A stretch of DNA of 10,906 nt from NCBI GenBank assembly GCA_006227965.1, contig SBFL01000324.1, positions 1 to 10,906 of the forward strand, read 5' to 3'. Position 1 is the first letter of the stretch. The number at the start of each line of letters is the position of its first letter. Source of the stretch: Bacteroidota bacterium (GTDB lineage Bacteria > Bacteroidota > Bacteroidia > Flavobacteriales > Flavobacteriaceae). Shown here piece by piece: positions 1,791-10,906 of this stretch. The notes beneath the pieces are model-generated. The model was not told the DNA's origin, searched no databases, and worked only from the letters and a program-made list of their open reading frames with translations. Position numbers and translations under genes: made by a program.

Positions 1791-3575
1791 CTACATCCGC
1801 TCAGGCACCTTGATGCCCAACATGGAGGTTCCCTTCCGGACCACCTCCCCAACCATTTTGGTTAGCTGAACCCGAAAACACCGGTGGGCCACATTGGATT
1901 CTCCCAGGATGGTGATCTGCTGGTACAAGGAATTGAAATCCTTGACCAGGTCGTAGGTGTAGTTGGCTATCAGGGCAGGGCTATACTGAGCAGCAGCCTC
2001 CTCTACCACCTGTGGAAAGACCTCCAGGTCTTTCAGGAGTTGTTTTTCCCTGGGGTCCAGTCCCCCAAGGTCTGAGGGGTCCACCTCGGAGCTGTAATCG
2101 AAATCAGCCCGGCGAAGTATGGACTGGATACGCGCATAGGTATACTGGATAAATGGCCCCGTATTCCCCTGGAAATCGACGGATTCCTCCGGATTGAACA
2201 ACATGCGCTTGCGGGGGTCCACCTTCAGGATGAAATACTTCAGTGCACCCATTCCAATGGTGTGGTACAGTTCCTTCTTTTCACCTTCACTGAAACCATC
2301 CAGCTTGCCGTGCTCCTGGGAGATCTGGGCTGCGGTCTGGTCCATTTCAAGGATCAGGTCATCCGCATCCACCACAGTGCCTTCACGGCTCTTCATTTTT
2401 CCACTTGGAAGGTCTACCATCCCGTAACTGAGGTGGTAGAGGTGGTCTGCCCACGCGTATCCCAGTTTTTTGAGGATGAGGAAGAGAACCCTGAAATGAT
2501 AATCCTGCTCATTCCCGACGGTATATACCATTCCCGTGATGTCCGGGTAGTCCTGTACACGCTGAATGGCCGTACCTATGTCCTGGGTCATATAAACTGC
2601 CGTGCCATCCGCTCTCAGCACGATTTTCTCGTCCAGCCCCTCATCGGTAAGGTCAATCCATACGCTGCCATCGGGTTTCCGGTAGAAAACCCCTTTATCG
2701 AGCCCCTCGGCCACCACATCCTTGCCGAGCAGATAGGTGTTGCTTTCGTAATAGAGCTTGTCAAAATCCACCCCGAGGTCACGGTAGGTCAGCTCAAAGC
2801 CATCGTAAACCCAACCATTCATCAGCTCCCAGAGGGAAACCACTTCCGGGTCACCGGCTTCCCACCGCCGGAGCAGCTCCTGTGCCTCTTTAAGGCTGGG
2901 AGCCTCCTTTTCTGCCTCTTCCCTGCTCATCCCTTTTGAGACCAGGTCCAGGACCTCGTCCTTGTAGGTGCGGTCAAAGGCCACATAGTAGTTCCCCACC
3001 AGTTTATCCCCTTTTAGCCCTGAGCTTTCTGGCGTTTCTCCTTTTCCATGGCGTTGCCAGGCCAGCATGCTCTTGCAGATATGGATCCCCCGGTCATTGA
3101 TGATCTGGGTTTTGTAAACCTTGTGACCAGCAGCCTCCAGGATCCTGGAAACGGAATATCCCAGCAGGATGTTGCGAATATGCCCCAGGTGGAGGGGTTT
3201 GTTCGTGTTGGGAGAGGAATATTCGACCATGGTGACGCCTGCGGAATTCCTCGGTTTATAGCCGTATAGTGCCTCGGCACGGACCCGATTAAAAAACCCA
3301 AGATAGAAGGCATCGCTGATCTCCAGGTTCAAAAACCCTTTTATGGTATTAAAACCGGCCACTTCCTCAAGTCCCTCTGTCAGGTATTCCCCAATGTCGT
3401 TTCCGATCTGCACGGGGTTGCCCTTTAACTGCCTGAGCATTGGAAAAACCACCACGGTGATATCCCCCGCAAATTCCTTTCGCGTGGGTTGCAATTCCAC
3501 TGTTTCAAGGGTGATATTATAAAGGGAACTAACCGCTTCCTTAACCTTTTGGACTAGCAAGTCTTCAAGTTGCAT
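1791..3575 (-). CDS. argS: Arginine--tRNA ligase
   Basis: Class I aminoacyl-tRNA synthetase of 594 residues that charges tRNA-Arg with arginine in the cytoplasm. It shows the N-terminal ArgRS tRNA-recognition domain (about 1-105), the ATP-binding HIGH-type motif HLGH (129-132) within SPNTNKPLHLGHIRN, the catalytic Rossmann fold, the KMSKS-equivalent MKSR (394-397), and the C-terminal helical DALR anticodon-binding domain ending in SMLGIKVPERM. The length is normal for the family. An in-frame TTG eight codons upstream (3597-3599) would lengthen the protein, but that TTG lies inside a perfect -7 promoter element, so the ATG at 3573-3575 is the likely start, with a leader of roughly 15 bases. 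It converges on the DUF6090 gene with a 26-base gap and is divergent from the 3674-5618 unit. Confidence 0.98.
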   Translation of the reverse strand: MQLEDLLVQKVKEAVSSLYNITLETVELQPTRKEFAGDITVVVFPMLRQLKGNPVQIGNDIGEYLTEGLEEVAGFNTIKGFLNLEISDAFYLGFFNRVRAEALYGYKPRNSAGVTMVEYSSPNTNKPLHLGHIRNILLGYSVSRILEAAGHKVYKTQIINDRGIHICKSMLAWQRHGKGETPESSGLKGDKLVGNYYVAFDRTYKDEVLDLVSKGMSREEAEKEAPSLKEAQELLRRWEAGDPEVVSLWELMNGWVYDGFELTYRDLGVDFDKLYYESNTYLLGKDVVAEGLDKGVFYRKPDGSVWIDLTDEGLDEKIVLRADGTAVYMTQDIGTAIQRVQDYPDITGMVYTVGNEQDYHFRVLFLILKKLGYAWADHLYHLSYGMVDLPSGKMKSREGTVVDADDLILEMDQTAAQISQEHGKLDGFSEGEKKELYHTIGMGALKYFILKVDPRKRMLFNPEESVDFQGNTGPFIQYTYARIQSILRRADFDYSSEVDPSDLGGLDPREKQLLKDLEVFPQVVEEAAAQYSPALIANYTYDLVKDFNSLYQQITILGESNVAHRCFRVQLTKMVGEVVRKGTSMLGIKVPERM

Positions 3576-3596
3576 AGATCGGATGTTTTCAAGGGG

Positions 3597-3604
3597 CAAA
3601 ACTA
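3597..3604 (-). promoter_or_regulatory. -7 promoter element of argS
   Basis: On the minus strand this reads TAGTTTTG, a perfect match to the Bacteroidetes -7 consensus TAnnTTTG, followed by C as is common. No TTG is seen at the expected -33 spacing. Transcription would begin around 3590, which excludes the upstream TTG start and supports the ATG at 3575. Confidence 0.6.
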
Positions 3605-3727: not shown

Positions 3728-4152
3728 TGCTAGTTAACGCGTCCTATAACAATCCGGAAATCGACCGGAAGATCGACTCCCTGGTTGGCAAACCGTTTAC
3801 CCTGAAACAGCGGTGGACCATGAAGGGTATTGGTTCGCCAAAACTTTACATCACCAGTGCGAGCCTTCAGATCCGAAATCTTCTTCTGCTGGACAACAAC
3901 CTGGACAGCTGTAATATCGAGTTGCGGCCTGATGGGATTATCCTGCGCTTCAGATCGCTTCTGGAAACCTACGCCCTGGTCATTCCTTATTACAAACTCA
4001 CCCTGTATAAGGGGGACCTTGGGATCTACAGCGTCTACATGGACCACCATTTTGTCAAGGTCAGGGCAGACACCAAGGCCATTCAAAGGTTCTTTGTTAA
4101 ACTTCTGGGGTACAAAGCGGATCAGATGCCACAAAGTCCCCCAAATCTGTAA
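3727..4152 (+). CDS. Conserved-looking hypothetical protein (141 aa)
   Basis: I do not recognise a named family. The 141-residue product has no signal peptide or membrane segment and looks like a small cytoplasmic alpha/beta or beta-rich protein: alternating strands such as PKLYITSASLQIRNLLLLDN, SCNIELRPDGIILRFRS and YALVIPYYKLTLYKGDLGIYSVYMDHHFVKVRAD, then a terminal helix (TKAIQRFFVKLLGYK). That pattern resembles small beta-barrel or PH-like folds, but only as a guess. The ATG overlaps the stop of the small frame upstream (TAATG), and its own stop overlaps the next start in the same way, so it is probably co-translated with the SDR protein and may work with it. An antisense frame over the same bases has no family character. 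Confidence 0.8.
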   Translation: MLVNASYNNPEIDRKIDSLVGKPFTLKQRWTMKGIGSPKLYITSASLQIRNLLLLDNNLDSCNIELRPDGIILRFRSLLETYALVIPYYKLTLYKGDLGIYSVYMDHHFVKVRADTKAIQRFFVKLLGYKADQMPQSPPNL

Positions 4153-5618
4153 TGATGTCAACAGAAAACAAGAGCGGAAAGTCATTGAAAATTCTGCTTA
4201 CGGGCGCCAACGGGTATATTGGTTTGCGCGTACTGCACCAGTTGCTGGAAGAAGGGCATCAGGTGGTATGTGCTGTGAGGGATGAAAAGCGCCTGCCGGT
4301 CCATGAGGATACCCGCCGCAAAGTGCAGGTAGTGGAAGTGGACTTCCTGGAGGACCCGCAACCCGGCCTTTTCGATGAGGACTTCGATATTGCCTACTAC
4401 CTGATCCATTCCCTGAGTTCCTCAACAAAGGATTTTGACCAGCGGGAAGCCCAGGCCGCCAGGAACTTCAACATTTACATGCAGCGGGCCAAACCCCGTC
4501 AGGTTATTTACCTGAGCGGGATCGTTAACAACCCTCAGCTTTCCAGGCATCTGAGTTCCCGGAAAAACGTGGAGGATATCCTTTATGAGGGCCCTTTCGC
4601 ACTCACAGTGCTCAGGGCCGGGATCATCGTGGGCTCCGGTAGTTCCTCCTTCGAGATTATCCGGGACCTTTGCGAAAAACTGCCTGTTATGATCACCCCT
4701 AAATGGGTGCTGACCATAACCCAGCCAATCGCTATTCACGATGTCATTCAATTCCTGACCGGAGTTCTGGGGAGGGAGGATACCTTTGACCAGAGCTTTG
4801 ATATTGCGGGCCCTGACATCCTCACCTACAGGGATATGCTGAACGGATACGCCAAGGTCCGGGGCTTTAAAAACTGGATTATCACCGTACCGGTTATGAC
4901 CCCGAGGCTCTCCTCCTACTGGCTCTACTTTGTAACCTCCACCTCCTATAAACTGGCGGTGAACCTGGTAGAGAGCATGAAGGTGGAAGTATTGGCACAG
5001 GACAACCGGCTTCAGGAAATGCTGGGCATAAAAACACTTTCCTATAAGGAGGCGATTAAAATGGCCTTCAGGAAAATTGAACAGAACTCCGTGGTGAGCA
5101 GCTGGAAGGACAGTATGGTAAGCGGGCGTTTCGATAAGAACCTGGGGCGGTATATTCAGGTCCCGAAATACGGGGTGCTCAAGGACGAGAAGTCCGTGAA
5201 GATCACCGACAGGGAAGCTGTATTGGACAACATATGGCGCATCGGGGGGGATACCGGATGGTACTATGGCAACTGGCTGTGGCAACTCCGCGGGTTTATG
5301 GACAAACTCAACGGCGGGGTAGGGCTGAGGCGCGGACGTACCAGCCCGGACAGGATCTCCGTCGGGGATTCACTGGATTTCTGGCGGGTATTGCTGGCGG
5401 ACAGACAACAGGGGCGCCTGCTCCTGTTTGCTGAAATGCGCCTTCCGGGAGAGGCCTGGCTGGAATTCCATATTGACGAGAACAACGTCCTGAATCAGAC
5501 GGCCACCTTCCGGCCCAGAGGGCTTACCGGACGATTGTACTGGTACAGCGTCCTGCCCTTTCATTACTTCATTTTCGGGGGGATGATACGGAACATCTCC
5601 AAAAACCACATTGCTTAG
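4152..5618 (+). CDS. SDR-family NAD(P)-binding protein with C-terminal DUF2867-like domain
   Basis: This 488-residue two-domain protein has an N-terminal atypical short-chain dehydrogenase fold. The nucleotide-binding motif TGANGYIG (17-24) follows the first strand KILLT, and VDFLED and YYLIHSL continue the Rossmann fold. The region YLSGIVNN (120-127) is where classical SDRs have the catalytic Ser and Tyr; no YxxxK is visible, so it belongs with the atypical NmrA-like/complex-I-like group, which may bind the nucleotide without classical dehydrogenase chemistry. The C-terminal part (about 345-485), with W-rich segments (DTGWYYGNWLWQLRGFMD, GEAWLEFHID, GLTGRLYWYSVLPFHYFIF), looks like DUF2867. 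The SDR-DUF2867 fusion is widespread but its substrate is unknown. Two ATGs in a row open the frame; the first overlaps the previous TAA. It converges on ctlX. Confidence 0.9.
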   Translation: MMSTENKSGKSLKILLTGANGYIGLRVLHQLLEEGHQVVCAVRDEKRLPVHEDTRRKVQVVEVDFLEDPQPGLFDEDFDIAYYLIHSLSSSTKDFDQREAQAARNFNIYMQRAKPRQVIYLSGIVNNPQLSRHLSSRKNVEDILYEGPFALTVLRAGIIVGSGSSSFEIIRDLCEKLPVMITPKWVLTITQPIAIHDVIQFLTGVLGREDTFDQSFDIAGPDILTYRDMLNGYAKVRGFKNWIITVPVMTPRLSSYWLYFVTSTSYKLAVNLVESMKVEVLAQDNRLQEMLGIKTLSYKEAIKMAFRKIEQNSVVSSWKDSMVSGRFDKNLGRYIQVPKYGVLKDEKSVKITDREAVLDNIWRIGGDTGWYYGNWLWQLRGFMDKLNGGVGLRRGRTSPDRISVGDSLDFWRVLLADRQQGRLLLFAEMRLPGEAWLEFHIDENNVLNQTATFRPRGLTGRLYWYSVLPFHYFIFGGMIRNISKNHIA

Positions 5619-5669: not shown

Positions 5670-6599
5670 TTATTTTCTTGGGAGGAACACCTCCGCCATC
5701 ATACAGCGGGCACTGCCGCCCCCACAGGCCTCGATGGTATCGATCGGACTGGATATTATCCTGGAAGTACGCTCGATACAGGCTATCTGCTCCGGGTTCA
5801 GGGATTTTCGCGCGGAAGCGCTCATCACCATAAGGCGTTCGCCATCCCGGCCAAGTACCTGCAGCATATTTCCTGCAAAGGAGTGCATTTGTGCTTCGGA
5901 GATTTCGACGATGTCAAAACCGTCCTTTTTTAGGTGGCTGACCACGCTTTGCCGCTCTTTTTTGTTGTCTATGGAATCCAGACAGATCACGGCAAGGTCC
6001 TCTGCAAGGCACATCATCACATTGGTGTGGTAGATGGGAAGCCGCTTGCCATCCACAGACTGGTAAGCCGTAAAGATAACCGGAGCCACATTGAAATCCT
6101 CACAGAATTCGATAAACAATCCTTCATCGGCCCTGTCAGACAAAGCGCAGTATGCTTTCTGGTGGGTTCGGTCCATCAGAATACTGCCGGTAGCTTCAAG
6201 AAAGATCCCTTCCTTTTCGGCCGATGTGTAGTCTATGATCTGCTCGATAACGAACCCTTTTTCCTCCAGGAGGTCAAAAATGTCCATCCGCCGTTCTTTT
6301 CTGCGGTTCTCTGCGTACATGGGGTAAATCACTACCGTGCCATTTTCATGGAAGGAAACCCAGTTGTTGGGGAAGATGGAATCCGGGGTGTCTGTTTCCA
6401 CCCGGTCGTCCACCACAATCACTTCCACCCCTGCTTCGCGCAGCTTTCCCACAAAGGCGTCGAACTCCTCCTGAGCCCGCTGGTTAATAACGGAATTGCG
6501 AAGGTCCAGGTCCTCCTGAAAGTAGTTGTTCACCGCGGTCTGTTCGTTCATCCGGAAATTTACCGGACGCACCATCAGGATAGTGTTCGTGATCTGCAT
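5670..6599 (-). CDS. ctlX: CtlX-type citrulline/arginine-family hydrolase
   Basis: This 309-residue cytoplasmic enzyme belongs to the guanidino-group-modifying superfamily (arginine deiminase, DDAH, amidinotransferase). It matches the CtlX group linked to citrulline utilisation: start MQITNTILMVRPVNFRMNEQ, FPNNW at 76-80, the LEATGS motif (134-139), the catalytic His at H191 in PIYHTNVMM, and the nucleophile C299 in CGGGSARCMMAEV near the C-terminus. The likely reaction is hydrolysis of the ureido or guanidino group of citrulline or a related compound; the exact substrate is not settled by sequence. An upstream in-frame TTG (6621-6623) falls inside a perfect -7 promoter element, and an ATG at 6608 would leave almost no leader, so the ATG at 6597-6599 is chosen. 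It is a single-gene unit, convergent with the SDR gene. Confidence 0.93.
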   Translation of the reverse strand: MQITNTILMVRPVNFRMNEQTAVNNYFQEDLDLRNSVINQRAQEEFDAFVGKLREAGVEVIVVDDRVETDTPDSIFPNNWVSFHENGTVVIYPMYAENRRKERRMDIFDLLEEKGFVIEQIIDYTSAEKEGIFLEATGSILMDRTHQKAYCALSDRADEGLFIEFCEDFNVAPVIFTAYQSVDGKRLPIYHTNVMMCLAEDLAVICLDSIDNKKERQSVVSHLKKDGFDIVEISEAQMHSFAGNMLQVLGRDGERLMVMSASARKSLNPEQIACIERTSRIISSPIDTIEACGGGSARCMMAEVFLPRK

Positions 6600-6620
6600 A
6601 AAACACATATAAAATGCAAG

Positions 6621-6628
6621 CAAATGTA
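6621..6628 (-). promoter_or_regulatory. -7 promoter element of ctlX
   Basis: On the minus strand this reads TACATTTG, a perfect TAnnTTTG, followed by C. Transcription would begin near 6614, giving a leader of about 15 bases before the ATG at 6599. No TTG is seen at the usual -33 distance. Confidence 0.6.
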
Positions 6629-7088: not shown

Positions 7089-7940
7089 ATGAAAAAACTA
7101 TTCAATACCCCATGGATGCAAATCACCAGCCTGGGACTGATGGTTGCCCTTGCCCTGCTGATCCTTTTCGGACCGGGAACACCTTCGGAAGCGGACCGCA
7201 AGATCGTGATCGACGATGCGGACGTGGCCCAGCTGATCGCCGCCTGGCAAAGCACCTGGAACCGCCTTCCCACCCAGGAGGAATTAACGGGCATCCTACA
7301 GAACCATGTGCGGGAAGAAGTACTCTATCAAGAATCCCTCAGACAGGGGCTGGACAAGTCCAATGCTGCCGTCAAACGCGCCCTTATCAACCAGATGGAC
7401 ATGATGGCTGAAGGACAGGGGGAACAGCGGGAGATCACCGATGCCGATATCCTGGCCTACTACAACCTGAGGAAGGAACAGTTTGTGAGCCCGGCCATAT
7501 TCAGTTTCAAACAGGTTTATTTCGGGCAGGATGCCGAGATGCAGGCCCTGGCCCTTTTGAAAGACAAATGGAATGCCACAAATGCAAGCTTTGAACAGGT
7601 GCTGTCTGCAGGTCAGACCACCATGCTGCCCCCGGTATTGGAGAACCGGAATGGTCCACAGGTAGACCGCGAATTCGGCCAGGGGTTTGCAGCGGCACTT
7701 GAGGAACTGGAAACAAACACCTGGGAAGGGCCCTTGGCCTCCAGCTTTGGCTGGCATCTCGTCTACCTGGATTCCCTTGCCACCGCCGCTCCCATGCCGC
7801 TTTCAGCAGTACGGGGTTCCATTTACGAGCAGCTGCAGTATGAAGACAAAAATGCCGCCAAAGAGCAATTTTATACGGAGCTCATCCAGCAATACGACGT
7901 AACCTACAAGGGGCTTGCCCAACAGATCGTAAATGAATAA
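7089..7940 (+). CDS. Membrane-anchored parvulin-type (PpiC-like) peptidyl-prolyl isomerase
   Basis: This 283-residue protein has one N-terminal membrane anchor (about 11-28), then a SurA/PpiC-like helical region (about 38-125) with the family pattern REEVLYQESLRQGLDKSN...VKRALINQM, and a C-terminal parvulin-like domain (about 131-230). Recognisable parvulin elements are the first strand IFSFKQVYF, the FGQGFAAAL helix and the WEGPLASSFGWHLVYLD end strand. It probably acts on the periplasmic face as a folding helper. The helical part fits isomerases encoded next to HupE/UreJ-family genes. Its last 8 bases overlap the start of the HupE-like gene, so it is probably dedicated to folding or assembling that protein or its partners. 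The active-site residues of canonical parvulins are not all obvious, so it may be more chaperone than enzyme. There is no Shine-Dalgarno site. Confidence 0.88.
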   Translation: MKKLFNTPWMQITSLGLMVALALLILFGPGTPSEADRKIVIDDADVAQLIAAWQSTWNRLPTQEELTGILQNHVREEVLYQESLRQGLDKSNAAVKRALINQMDMMAEGQGEQREITDADILAYYNLRKEQFVSPAIFSFKQVYFGQDAEMQALALLKDKWNATNASFEQVLSAGQTTMLPPVLENRNGPQVDREFGQGFAAALEELETNTWEGPLASSFGWHLVYLDSLATAAPMPLSAVRGSIYEQLQYEDKNAAKEQFYTELIQQYDVTYKGLAQQIVNE

Positions 7941-10086
7941 AGCCAAAAAGCCACTCCTCAAAACCTGGATGCTGCTATGCCTCTTCCTGCTGGGGTACCC
8001 GGCCCGGGCAGACATCGTCTACCCTGCGCGTCTGCAATTCAGCGAAACGGCCCCGGGCCTGTTTGAGGTCGTTTTCATCCTGCCGGTGATCAACGGGAAA
8101 ATACTCAAGGCACAACCCGTATTTCCCGAGTTCTGCAGTCCTGTTTCTGATCCGGTGGTGCAGGTGGACGCCTTCCAGAAAAAATCCAGGTGGGAAATGC
8201 GATGCGAAAAAATTTCCCTGCACGGTGAGCAGATCGGCATAAACGGACTGCTGGGAAGCCCGATCGACATCATCCTGGAGGTCACCACCCTGGAGGGTCG
8301 TACCTACCAGACCACCCTGAGCCCAAATGAAGCTTTTTACCTAATCCCCCCACCTCCGGGCCTGTCTGAATTCCTGACCTTTGGAACCATGAAAGGGACC
8401 CGGGGCATGCTCTGGCAATGGTGCCTCGCATTCATGTTTCTTGCCGGGTTTCTCAAAAGGCCCGTGCTCCCATTTTCATGGATGCTGCTGGCCGCCATCT
8501 CAGGGGCGTCCATCGGGAGTTTTTTAAGCGCCCGGGAATTGCTACTGGTACCTTCCTGGGCCGGAGAGGTTACGGCCCTGTTGGTGAGCCTTGTGCTGCT
8601 TTTGCCCAGGGCCCCCGGACAGGAAAACGGGCGGCCCCTGAAAAGTGGGCTGGTCCTGTTAGGGCTTGGGGCCCTGCTCATAGGGGGTATGCTTCCAGAA
8701 GAAATGGGCCTGTCCGGGTATACAACGGCCGAGATGGCCGTGCTGAAATTCTTTGAGATCCTCGGGATAGCCCTAGGGGTGTTGCTCCTGGGATTGCTGG
8801 TGCGGCAGGCCCTTTTGGTTCTTGCCCTTACAAAGAACGGTCTCAAAATACCCCTGGCCAGAGGGTTCGCTGCCCTCTCCCTCGGGGTATTGCTCTGGAA
8901 ACTAAGCCTGTTCTGGAACTACCCTTCCATGCTTCCTTCTATTCCATGGGCCATAACCGGGATTGTAGCTTCCCTGGCACTCTGGACGGTCTGCCTGCCC
9001 CGCAATGAGAAGGGTGCTGTTCCCGTCTGGCTGCTGCCGGCCTTTGCCCTGGGGTACCTTTGGGGCTTGCGGGAAATTGAAATCCCCTTTGCCCGGGCCT
9101 TCTTGCTTGCACTCACAGCGGTTTACCCCATCCTCATCCTGTCGGGCAGATGGCGCTTCGGTCCCGTTCAAAAGGGCCTCATGGTATTGGGTGGGGTGGC
9201 TGCGGGGAATTATCTGTTCCGGCATGCGGATGCAACCCTCTCTTACCCGGTGGCCAGGTCCATATTCTTTGCCGTTCTGCTGTTATTGATATCAATCTGC
9301 TTTATTGTATTCTCCGGGTGGAACTCAGCCCCTGCCTCCTCAAAAAGGTATCGCTCGGTCACCGCTATTGCCTTGATCCTGTTTGCCTTCGTTTCCGGGG
9401 GCTTCCTGTTACTGGATGCATATCGGGACTCCCTTGGGTTCAGCCTTCCGGAGGGAAAACTTCCCCTCCCCTTCCTCTCGGCCGGCCTCATGCTGCTGGG
9501 CTTGCTGCTGTGGCCCCGGCACCGGAAAATTCACCGGCAAATGGGGATGGAGCGAAAGGCCCCTGTGGCCAGCCTGGCCCTGATAACAGTGGCCTTCTTT
9601 TTGCTGCCTGTGTGCCTGGAAATCCGAAATCCGTGGTACCGGCCTGAAAAGATGGATGAACAGGCCCTGATAGGCCTCATGGAACGAAGGCTTAGGAATA
9701 CCTACACCGCATTTAATATCGCAGACGAGGAGGCCCTGTTCGAGCAACTGGCAGACAACCTGGACGAAGGATTGCTCGATCACATTTATCTGGACAGCCG
9801 CAGGCGCCTTACCATGGGGCTTCGGGAAGGCTCCCGGGTCACCGTGAAGGACGTAAGCCTGGGGGAACTCGGAACGCCGGAGTCCGGTGTCTCCGAAGCG
9901 GGAGGTTGGAAGTACCCGGCCACCTGGACGGTAACGGCCCAGGTAAAACACTTAAAACACATCCACTATCGCAGAAACCAGTATACCGGCACCATTGCCC
10001 TTAAACCTTTAGAAAACGGATGGAAAATATCGGAAATCATACTGACCTCGGAGGACCGGCAGGTGATCGCCTCGGGCAGCCTGTAG
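7933..10086 (+). CDS. Large polytopic HupE/UreJ-related membrane protein with soluble domains at both ends
   Basis: This 717-residue protein has a signal peptide (1-26, cleavage after ARA). An extracytoplasmic domain (27-140) follows, of the type that precedes HupE/UreJ membrane cores (DIVYPARLQFSETAPGLFEV, PVFPEFCSP, RWEMRC, GINGLLGS), with a Cys pair C68/C91 that could form a disulfide. A proline-rich hinge (LIPPPPG) leads to FLTFGTMKGTRGMLWQW, the position of the HupE 'LG.eHil.GiDHllF' motif, but without its histidines. Some 13-14 membrane segments run from about 157 to 561, roughly twice the usual HupE span count. The C-terminal soluble domain (565-717) starts LIGLMERRLRNTYTAFNIADEEALFEQLA and ends GWKISEIILTSEDRQV. 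The gene overlaps both neighbours. Its function is unknown; the context suggests an envelope transport complex. Confidence 0.85.
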   Translation: MNKAKKPLLKTWMLLCLFLLGYPARADIVYPARLQFSETAPGLFEVVFILPVINGKILKAQPVFPEFCSPVSDPVVQVDAFQKKSRWEMRCEKISLHGEQIGINGLLGSPIDIILEVTTLEGRTYQTTLSPNEAFYLIPPPPGLSEFLTFGTMKGTRGMLWQWCLAFMFLAGFLKRPVLPFSWMLLAAISGASIGSFLSARELLLVPSWAGEVTALLVSLVLLLPRAPGQENGRPLKSGLVLLGLGALLIGGMLPEEMGLSGYTTAEMAVLKFFEILGIALGVLLLGLLVRQALLVLALTKNGLKIPLARGFAALSLGVLLWKLSLFWNYPSMLPSIPWAITGIVASLALWTVCLPRNEKGAVPVWLLPAFALGYLWGLREIEIPFARAFLLALTAVYPILILSGRWRFGPVQKGLMVLGGVAAGNYLFRHADATLSYPVARSIFFAVLLLLISICFIVFSGWNSAPASSKRYRSVTAIALILFAFVSGGFLLLDAYRDSLGFSLPEGKLPLPFLSAGLMLLGLLLWPRHRKIHRQMGMERKAPVASLALITVAFFLLPVCLEIRNPWYRPEKMDEQALIGLMERRLRNTYTAFNIADEEALFEQLADNLDEGLLDHIYLDSRRRLTMGLREGSRVTVKDVSLGELGTPESGVSEAGGWKYPATWTVTAQVKHLKHIHYRRNQYTGTIALKPLENGWKISEIILTSEDRQVIASGSL

Positions 10087-10760
10087 TCCGGCTCGATGGC
10101 CTGGCTTTCTCCTATGGGGACAAGGGATTTTCCCTCGATGTCCCCATATTGGAAATCGGGCATGGCAGCAAGGTGGCCGTTGTAGGGCCAAGCGGCTGTG
10201 GCAAGACAACCCTCATCCACCTGGTTGCAGGCATCCTGAAGCCTGTTAACGGGTCTGTAACGGTGGGGGAAGTGGTGTTGGGAGATTACCCGGAGCGGGA
10301 TCTGCTGGATTACCGGATTGCCACCATGGGGCTGATCTTTCAGGAATTCAGGCTGCTGGAATACCTCAACGTCCTGGAAAACATCCTGCTTCCCTATCGG
10401 TTGAATCCCGTGCTGGAACTCAGCCCGCAAACCCGGGCCAGGGCTGCAGAACTGGCCACGGAGGTGGGCCTGCACGACAAACTGGAGCGGCATCCCAAAA
10501 ATCTTTCCCAGGGGGAACGGCAGCGGGCAGCCCTCTGCCGAGCCCTGATAACGCGTCCCACCCTGCTATTGGCCGACGAACCGACGGCCAACCTGGACCC
10601 TGCCAACCGCGACAAAATCCTGGGCCTGTTATTCAAATACTGCGGGGAAGAGCAGGCTACTCTGATGATGGTCACCCATGACCCGGAGGTACTGCAGAAA
10701 TTTGATCGGCAGGTAGACATCCGTGAATTCCTGCCGGAACCCAAACCCACCGCCTTATGA
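10020..10760 (+). CDS. ABC transporter ATP-binding protein, MacB/LolD-like
   Basis: This 246-residue cytoplasmic ATPase powers the permease encoded next. It has Walker A GPSGCGKT (56-63), Q-loop Q108 in GLIFQEFRLLEYLNVLEN, signature LSQGE (162-166), Walker B LLLADEP (182-188), D-loop NLD (191-193) and H-loop H220. The GLIFQ.F.LL..L...EN pattern is typical of the LolD/MacB/FtsE group, which moves lipoproteins, peptides or other envelope cargo rather than importing nutrients through a binding protein. The only ATG, GTG or TTG in frame before the conserved core is the ATG at 10020, which lies inside the preceding gene. The first 21 residues are therefore encoded by DNA that also encodes the end of the HupE-like protein. 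The stop overlaps the permease start as ATGA. Confidence 0.94.
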   Translation: MENIGNHTDLGGPAGDRLGQPVVRLDGLAFSYGDKGFSLDVPILEIGHGSKVAVVGPSGCGKTTLIHLVAGILKPVNGSVTVGEVVLGDYPERDLLDYRIATMGLIFQEFRLLEYLNVLENILLPYRLNPVLELSPQTRARAAELATEVGLHDKLERHPKNLSQGERQRAALCRALITRPTLLLADEPTANLDPANRDKILGLLFKYCGEEQATLMMVTHDPEVLQKFDRQVDIREFLPEPKPTAL

Positions 10761-10906
10761 AGCATGTTCTGTTTCTGGCCTGGAATTACCTGAGATATCA
10801 CCGCGTAAAGACGCTGTTTCTTTTGTTTGCCATCAGTCTCACTTTTTTTATCCCCATGGCCCTGGACCGGCTCTCCGAGCAGGGATCCGAAAAGCTTCGG
10901 GCCCGT
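10757..10906 (+). CDS. ABC transporter permease, FtsX/MacB-like (5' part, runs off the window)
   Basis: An ATG at 10757, overlapping the ATPase stop by four bases (ATGA), opens a frame that stays open for 50 codons to the window end. The product begins MKHVLFLAWNYLRYHR, has a hydrophobic segment at about residues 18-35 (TLFLLFAISLTFFIPMAL) and then a charged stretch, DRLSEQGSEKLRAR. This is the usual start of an FtsX/MacB-type permease: a short basic cytoplasmic leader, the first membrane span and the beginning of the extracytoplasmic domain. It is the likely partner of the ATPase. The rest of the protein and any further operon genes lie outside the window. Confidence 0.85.
   Translation, partial: MKHVLFLAWNYLRYHRVKTLFLLFAISLTFFIPMALDRLSEQGSEKLRAR

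Follow-up and report, generated by a model that had tools for sequence, protein, structure and literature searches.

Genes of the locus

The window, that is, the whole stretch of DNA analyzed here, is an entire 10,906-base contig (SBFL01000324.1) of a Bacteroidota bacterium of the Flavobacteriaceae, from an assembly that is 74.8% complete; the named close relatives were Robiginitalea metagenome-assembled genomes. It ends in an operon that looks like an inner-membrane machine for a trace metal such as zinc, in which a nickel-permease-like protein appears to have lost its own metal-binding histidines and to have been joined with a domain that bears histidines and partners an ATP-binding cassette (ABC) transporter. 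Four consecutive genes on the forward strand (7089-7940, 7933-10086, 10020-10760 and 10757 onward) overlap by 8, 67 and 4 bases, as an earlier note on this DNA had described. The first encodes a PpiC/parvulin-type peptidyl-prolyl isomerase of 283 residues (PF13145, E 2.1e-16), which is membrane-anchored as judged by eye. The second encodes a 717-residue protein consisting of a degenerate HupE homologue, an extra membrane segment and a C-terminal domain that partners the ABC genes. The third encodes a 246-residue ABC ATPase of the LolD/FtsE class (ABC_tran), for which LolD and FtsE were the best NCBIfam models, its scores lying below the cut-off of all of the best 25 of 209 models. The fourth (10757-10906), a MacB/FtsX-type permease gene, is cut by the contig end, and its 50 residues were identical to the start of a 391-residue relative (P0067) with MacB_PCD and FtsX domains. 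The isomerase, the ATPase class and the permease start had all been recognized correctly in the earlier note.

The 67-base overlap between the second and third genes (10020-10086) was identical in the window and in four related loci (L005, L012, L013 and L015), and only 4 bases overlap in L014 and L016. In the loci with the long overlap, the 21-residue leader of the ATPase is an out-of-frame reading of the conserved 3' end of the 717-residue gene. An Rfam scan of the window gave no match.

Conservation and linkage of a five-gene system

In all six relatives whose loci were compared (L005 and L012-L016), the same order was found: parvulin, large protein, ATPase, permease and then, beyond the point where the window ends, a ZnuA-family lipoprotein gene. 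The fifth gene matched the PF01297 profile in L005 (E 1.9e-36) and L012 (E 3.4e-34), and was assigned in the remaining four relatives by BLAST to the L005 protein. In L016, about 630 bases lie between the ATPase and permease genes. The binding-protein gene could not be found in the window's own genome, the assembly being 75% complete and the contig ending at 10906. A ZnuA-family binding protein adjoined this type of permease in all nine complete loci, which suggests that the system handles a transition metal. All six loci carried a DUF3604 gene no more than 4 kb away from the operon, and in four of them it was the immediate same-strand neighbor. In L012, HlyD-type and RND-type efflux genes (11136-14960, reverse strand) lie directly upstream of the operon; one frame (12312-14960), which extends almost as far as the sequence retrieved, matched both ACR_tran and OEP, a pump-porin fusion.

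Among 397 sampled Flavobacteriaceae genomes, the large protein was detected at E<1e-200 in five genomes and in the window's own, and these five were also the ones with a permease at E<1e-180 (5 of 397), a linkage that exceeds chance; the window's own genome gave no permease hit because its contig ends. A seventh large-protein match, in genome G389, was a short HupE protein, and 25 further genomes of the family contained only weak permease matches (E 1e-20 to 1e-26). In the phylum sample, 12 of 296 genomes, G000 among them, had a match to the profile of the large protein, and five of the other 11 were read (G554, G497, G576, G472 and G340). The permease profile matched 2 of 395 genomes, strongly only G554. 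A search with the C-terminal domain (P0023) collected 44 proteins, including those of Robertkochia, Tamlana, Fulvivirga, one Acidobacteriota and one Planctomycetes. Similar permeases (P0127 and P0143) and a similar C-terminal domain (P0042) do occur in Planctomycetes, as the earlier note had stated.

The five-gene system is therefore real and conserved. Both the gene neighborhoods and the co-occurrence bear out the proposal that the overlapping genes form a single system, although the earlier note missed the ZnuA-family fifth gene, and hence the metal theme, as well as the loss of the HupE histidines. No published description of this gene set was found in the literature on Zrg, HupE/UreJ, DUF3604, DUF4198, PA4063-PA4066 and MacB/FtsX-type zinc ABC units, in so far as the portions of these sources that were covered can tell. 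The statement that no system of this composition had been described thus holds for the exact set, but not for its surroundings: judging from excerpts of PMC9820375 and PMC9817125, the Zrg zinc system comes near in its permease and in the fold of the N-terminal domain.

A degenerate HupE homologue in the 717-residue protein

For the 717-residue protein itself, neither Pfam nor NCBIfam gave a significant match (best Pfam E 0.4). Its residues 1-329, however, aligned with HupE over the whole HupE length (hhalign probability 99.8, E 1.3e-28), so the HupE-type N-terminal part proposed earlier is upheld. An AlphaFold2 model (predicted local distance difference test (pLDDT) 85.6; predicted template modeling score (pTM) 0.80) comprised an N-terminal domain, a helical core and a soluble C-terminal domain, in agreement with the layout first suggested. 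The N-terminal periplasmic domain (residues 27-138; 8011-8346) is a homologue of the HupE N-domain ('anglerase'). It had no Pfam match at E≤10, no significant Pfam family was assigned to it or to the C-terminal domain, and a second structural look at the model with VIA placed its predicted fold near ZrgA. In excerpts of PMC12537917, the N-domain of a HupE protein is reported to bind Cu and Ni and to have its closest fold in ZrgA.

The N-terminal histidine of mature HupE aligned with Asp27, and Asp was present in 43 of the 44 relatives having a residue there. Within the first membrane core (residues 144-329; 8362-8919), which is HupE_UreJ_2-like, the histidines invariant in HupE are not kept: H187 was retained in 5 and D158 in 9 of 49 relatives, and none of the HupE core ligands occurs in the window protein. 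Measured against five short HupE proteins, the large protein thus lacks both the core His/Asp set and the mature N-terminal His.

The second membrane core (residues 336-556; 8938-9600) is weakly similar to HupE_UreJ (PF04955). At E≤0.05, 5 of 49 large-protein relatives matched PF04955 and 3 matched PF13795, so that Pfam reveals a HupE ancestry in some of them, and in P0043 and P0046 the two profiles fell in the two halves in turn. The second half gave an hhalign probability of 70% with one 211-residue HupE-type protein, and only 0.2-0.6% with a set of longer HupE proteins. Two different HupE-type cores seem to be the better, if still weak, reading of the membrane region, preferred because of the later PF04955 signal in relatives; the 'double-length core' of the earlier note is supported weakly by the same signals. 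An internal duplication of one HupE core was rejected, the first and second halves giving an hhalign probability of 13%, and an MFS-like core fold was not trusted, since the Foldseek and VIA rows had root mean square deviations of 12-20.

Conserved histidines of the C-terminal domain, permease and binding protein

The C-terminal soluble domain (residues 576-717; 9658-10083) has a predicted NTF2/VirB8-like fold and is the conserved partner of the ABC genes. The three histidines of its HxxHxH motif (H673, H676 and H678; 9949-9966) were the only ones kept in at least 80% of the 49 relatives, each in 49 of 49, and the motif was invariant in all seven members of a further C-domain set.

Permease homologues were numerous (1025 found, 120 listed, 68 aligned), and the aligned proteins were 390-394 residues long. 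Four permease histidines, H207, H209, H250 and H252, which form HGH and FHxH motifs, were invariant in 68 of 68 of these and in 14 of 14 of a wider set; Phaeobacter and Shinella relatives of the permease lacked the motifs. The structural model (pLDDT 86.8) is that of the complete L005 protein (P0063), not of the window's fragment. It had a MacB/LolCDE fold and three long membrane helices (residues 16-52, 291-334 and 349-390), not the four transmembrane (TM) helices of the MacB exporter. Related MacB-fold permeases were also observed near alkaline phosphatase genes on plasmids of Deinococcus radiodurans (L048) and Shinella (L047), another possible link with metalloenzymes.

Nine binding proteins were compared, and all nine share an HSHGx4HxH loop. 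The canonical ligands of cluster A-I binding proteins, which we take to be His/His/His/Glu, were read onto the alignment by eye; the third His and the Glu were each kept in seven of the nine.

Separate occurrence of the two modules

Short HupE proteins (326-330 residues) were encoded in a DUF3604 - parvulin - HupE arrangement in 5 of 5 loci (L017-L019, L033 and L034), with no hit to an ABC protein in the stretch read. Core-only HupE-type proteins of about 200 residues (L035-L037; G576, G472 and G340) had no parvulin or DUF3604 hit in the stretch. On the other hand, in 3 of 3 loci the C-terminal domain stood without HupE, directly before the same ATPase, permease and ZnuA-family genes: as a 166-residue anchored protein in Paracoccus, a 498-residue protein in Methylomagnum and a 591-residue protein in Bacteroidota genome G554. 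The last genome has both modules at separate sites (L032 and L033). Thus the constant companion of the ABC genes is the C-terminal domain and not the HupE part, which sharpens the earlier suggestion that the large protein is a partner of the ABC unit. Because each module also occurs without the other, the 717-residue gene is best read, from these gene arrangements, as a fusion of a HupE module with a C-domain/ABC module.

The permease was matched in 37 plasmid records (20 listed, five read, three of these judged by annotation alone); of the five, only those of Methylomagnum and Paracoccus had the C-domain set. The Methylomagnum locus has nikR, a TonB receptor gene and CopC as neighbors, and the Paracoccus locus two DUF4198 genes. 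A section heading of PMC12537917, the heading alone, reads 'DUF4198-a secreted nickel-binding protein'.

Comparison with known systems and proposed mechanism

The closest described relative is Zrg (ZrgABCDE of Vibrio, PA4063-PA4066 of Pseudomonas). Similar to Zrg, the system has a separate LolD-like ATPase, a MacB/FtsX-fold permease (as seen in the full-length protein of relatives) and a periplasmic domain of ZrgA-like fold within the 717-residue protein, and its permease was 27% identical to that of a Phaeobacter locus with the order Fur - DUF2796 - ATPase - permease - DUF3299. Unlike Zrg, its binding protein belongs to the ZnuA family and not to DUF2796, the domain resembling ZrgA is built into a membrane protein derived from HupE, no DUF3299 was present among the L005 proteins scanned, and the permease has HGH and FHxH and a model without TM4. 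With a ZrgA-type protein (DUF2796/PF10986) only the fold agrees; PF10986 was found in 0 of 60 relatives, in a search without a positive-control match that is not evidence of absence. HupE/UreJ proteins with the 'anglerase' domain are alike in aligning over their whole length, in the upstream PpiC gene and in a nearby DUF3604 gene, whereas here the ligand residues are lost and a membrane segment and C-terminal domain are added. ZnuABC/AdcABC (cluster A-I) systems share the PF01297 binding protein (tested in L005, L012, Methylomagnum and Paracoccus), but have a ZnuB-type (ABC-3) permease where the present one is of MacB/FtsX fold (PF12704/PF02687), and the binding proteins, although members of the family, do not carry the full His/His/His/Glu set. 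The system differs from the type VII transporters MacB and LolCDE in its three long membrane helices instead of four and in the lack of any MacA-, TolC- or LolA-like gene in the five-gene operons of six relatives.

On balance, we consider the operon to be probably a divergent Zrg-like transition-metal transporter of the MacB/LolCDE fold (type VII) with a degenerate HupE scaffold. In such a transporter, the ZnuA-family lipoprotein would capture the metal, probably through its invariant HSHGx4HxH loop, and the metal might be handed on through the HxxHxH motif of the periplasmic C-terminal domain of the 717-residue protein and the HGH and FHxH motifs of the periplasmic domain of the permease. ATP hydrolysis by the LolD-like ATPase would power a conformational cycle that moves the metal inward. 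Zinc seems the likeliest substrate; nickel, cobalt or copper may also be considered because of the nikR, CopC and DUF4198 neighbors. The HupE-derived part would be a degenerate permease retained as a membrane scaffold or docking platform, and the parvulin may help to fold the envelope parts. A re-wired metal path would be expected to show just this combination: parental metal sites that are lost, and invariant histidines in each of the three periplasmic parts.

Several observations weigh against a transporter of this kind. The four core histidines and one Asp that are invariant in the five short HupE proteins were not conserved in the 49 relatives; in the binding proteins, the first canonical ZnuA/AdcA ligand was absent in nine of nine and the second in eight of nine, as read by eye. 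The permease model has no TM4, and nine aligned family permeases end at the third helix, which makes the transport path uncertain. Foldseek alone returned no match of the large protein at E≤0.001, and the 50 rows listed did not include ZrgA. In seven loci, a simple scan of the region before the parvulin gene, made without a Flavobacteriaceae Zur consensus, revealed no Zur-like palindrome. Close permeases are named from Christiangramia and Formosa among the matches listed, with neighborhoods lying outside the counts given here. Finally, an excerpt of PMC11481552 makes the case that PA4063-4066, the relative in P. aeruginosa, is an exporter of a pyochelin-cobalt complex, whereas Vibrio requires ZrgA to grow when zinc is limiting (PMC9820375 and PMC9817125, likewise excerpts); the direction of transport by these units is accordingly disputed.

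Alternative explanations

An alternative that we regard as unlikely is a periplasmic metallation machine, in which the ABC unit, instead of delivering metal to the cytoplasm, would by mechanotransmission take it off the ZnuA-like lipoprotein and insert it into secreted DUF3604 enzymes, the parvulin folding the same clients; NosDFY and the copper loading of nitrous oxide reductase offer a comparison. It agrees with the constant company of DUF3604 genes, both near the operon and in the short-HupE loci, with the MacB/LolCDE-fold permease of only three long membrane helices, and with DUF3604 sequences whose beginnings resemble signal or lipoprotein sequences by eye. HxH, DH, HN and DxH motifs were kept in 15 of 15 aligned DUF3604 proteins (for example, L005 15065-16993); these motifs are presumably those of PHP-type metallohydrolases, and their conservation makes DUF3604 proteins candidate clients. 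However, the family has no characterized function (the best match to PDB sequences had E 1.7), and DUF3604 was hit in none of the three HupE-less C-domain loci (L032, L044 and L045). DUF3604 thus accompanies the HupE module, and the ABC unit does not depend on it as a client.

Likewise improbable, in our estimate, is a new class of periplasmic machine that relays metal, in which a three-TM type VII ABC unit, a ZnuA-like lipoprotein with a histidine loop replacing the canonical site and an HxxHxH NTF2-like domain would work together. The last would have been grafted onto varied carriers (in Flavobacteriaceae a degenerate membrane protein of HupE type, in Paracoccus one anchor helix and in Methylomagnum a soluble protein), and the HupE-fused form would load secreted PHP-like DUF3604 enzymes without any import.

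More doubtful still is an exporter, a MacB-fold unit that expels metal or a metallophore complex, as proposed for PA4063-4066 in the excerpt of PMC11481552. The permease fold would allow it, as would the HlyD and RND-type efflux genes that immediately precede the L012 operon on its strand. Against this, the ZnuA-family protein of all nine complete loci fits uptake or capture, and no MacA- or TolC-like gene was found within the operon of any of the six relatives (the 630-base gap of L016 lying outside this analysis), although HlyD, RND and OEP genes lie upstream of it in L012. A generic envelope machine of the LolCDE/MacB kind, extracting lipoproteins or other proteins, with the parvulin and large protein acting on polypeptides and metal being incidental, would suit the best ATPase scores, the LolCDE match of the permease fold and the parvulin within the operon, but is very unlikely given the invariant multi-histidine motifs in three periplasmic parts and the ZnuA-family partner.

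Other genes of the window

Upstream of the operon, the contig begins with a gene for a microbial rhodopsin, likely of proteorhodopsin type (106-831, forward; PF01036, E 1.6e-41), followed by genes for a DUF6090 protein (997-1764, forward; PF19578, E 7.9e-11), an arginyl-tRNA synthetase (1791-3599, reverse; PF00750 and PF05746), an NAD-binding epimerase-like domain fused to DUF2867 (4152-5618, forward) and a dimethylarginine dimethylaminohydrolase-like protein (5670-6623, reverse; PF19420, E 3.5e-110).

Implications

Reading the operon as a Zrg-like metal transporter joins three poorly understood gene sets, HupE/'anglerase' with parvulin, Zrg-type MacB-like ABC units and DUF3604, in one testable system, in which the invariant histidines of the permease are exact targets for mutation. 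The constant ZnuA-family neighbor also bears on the dispute over the direction, inward or outward, in which MacB-fold Zrg units carry metal.

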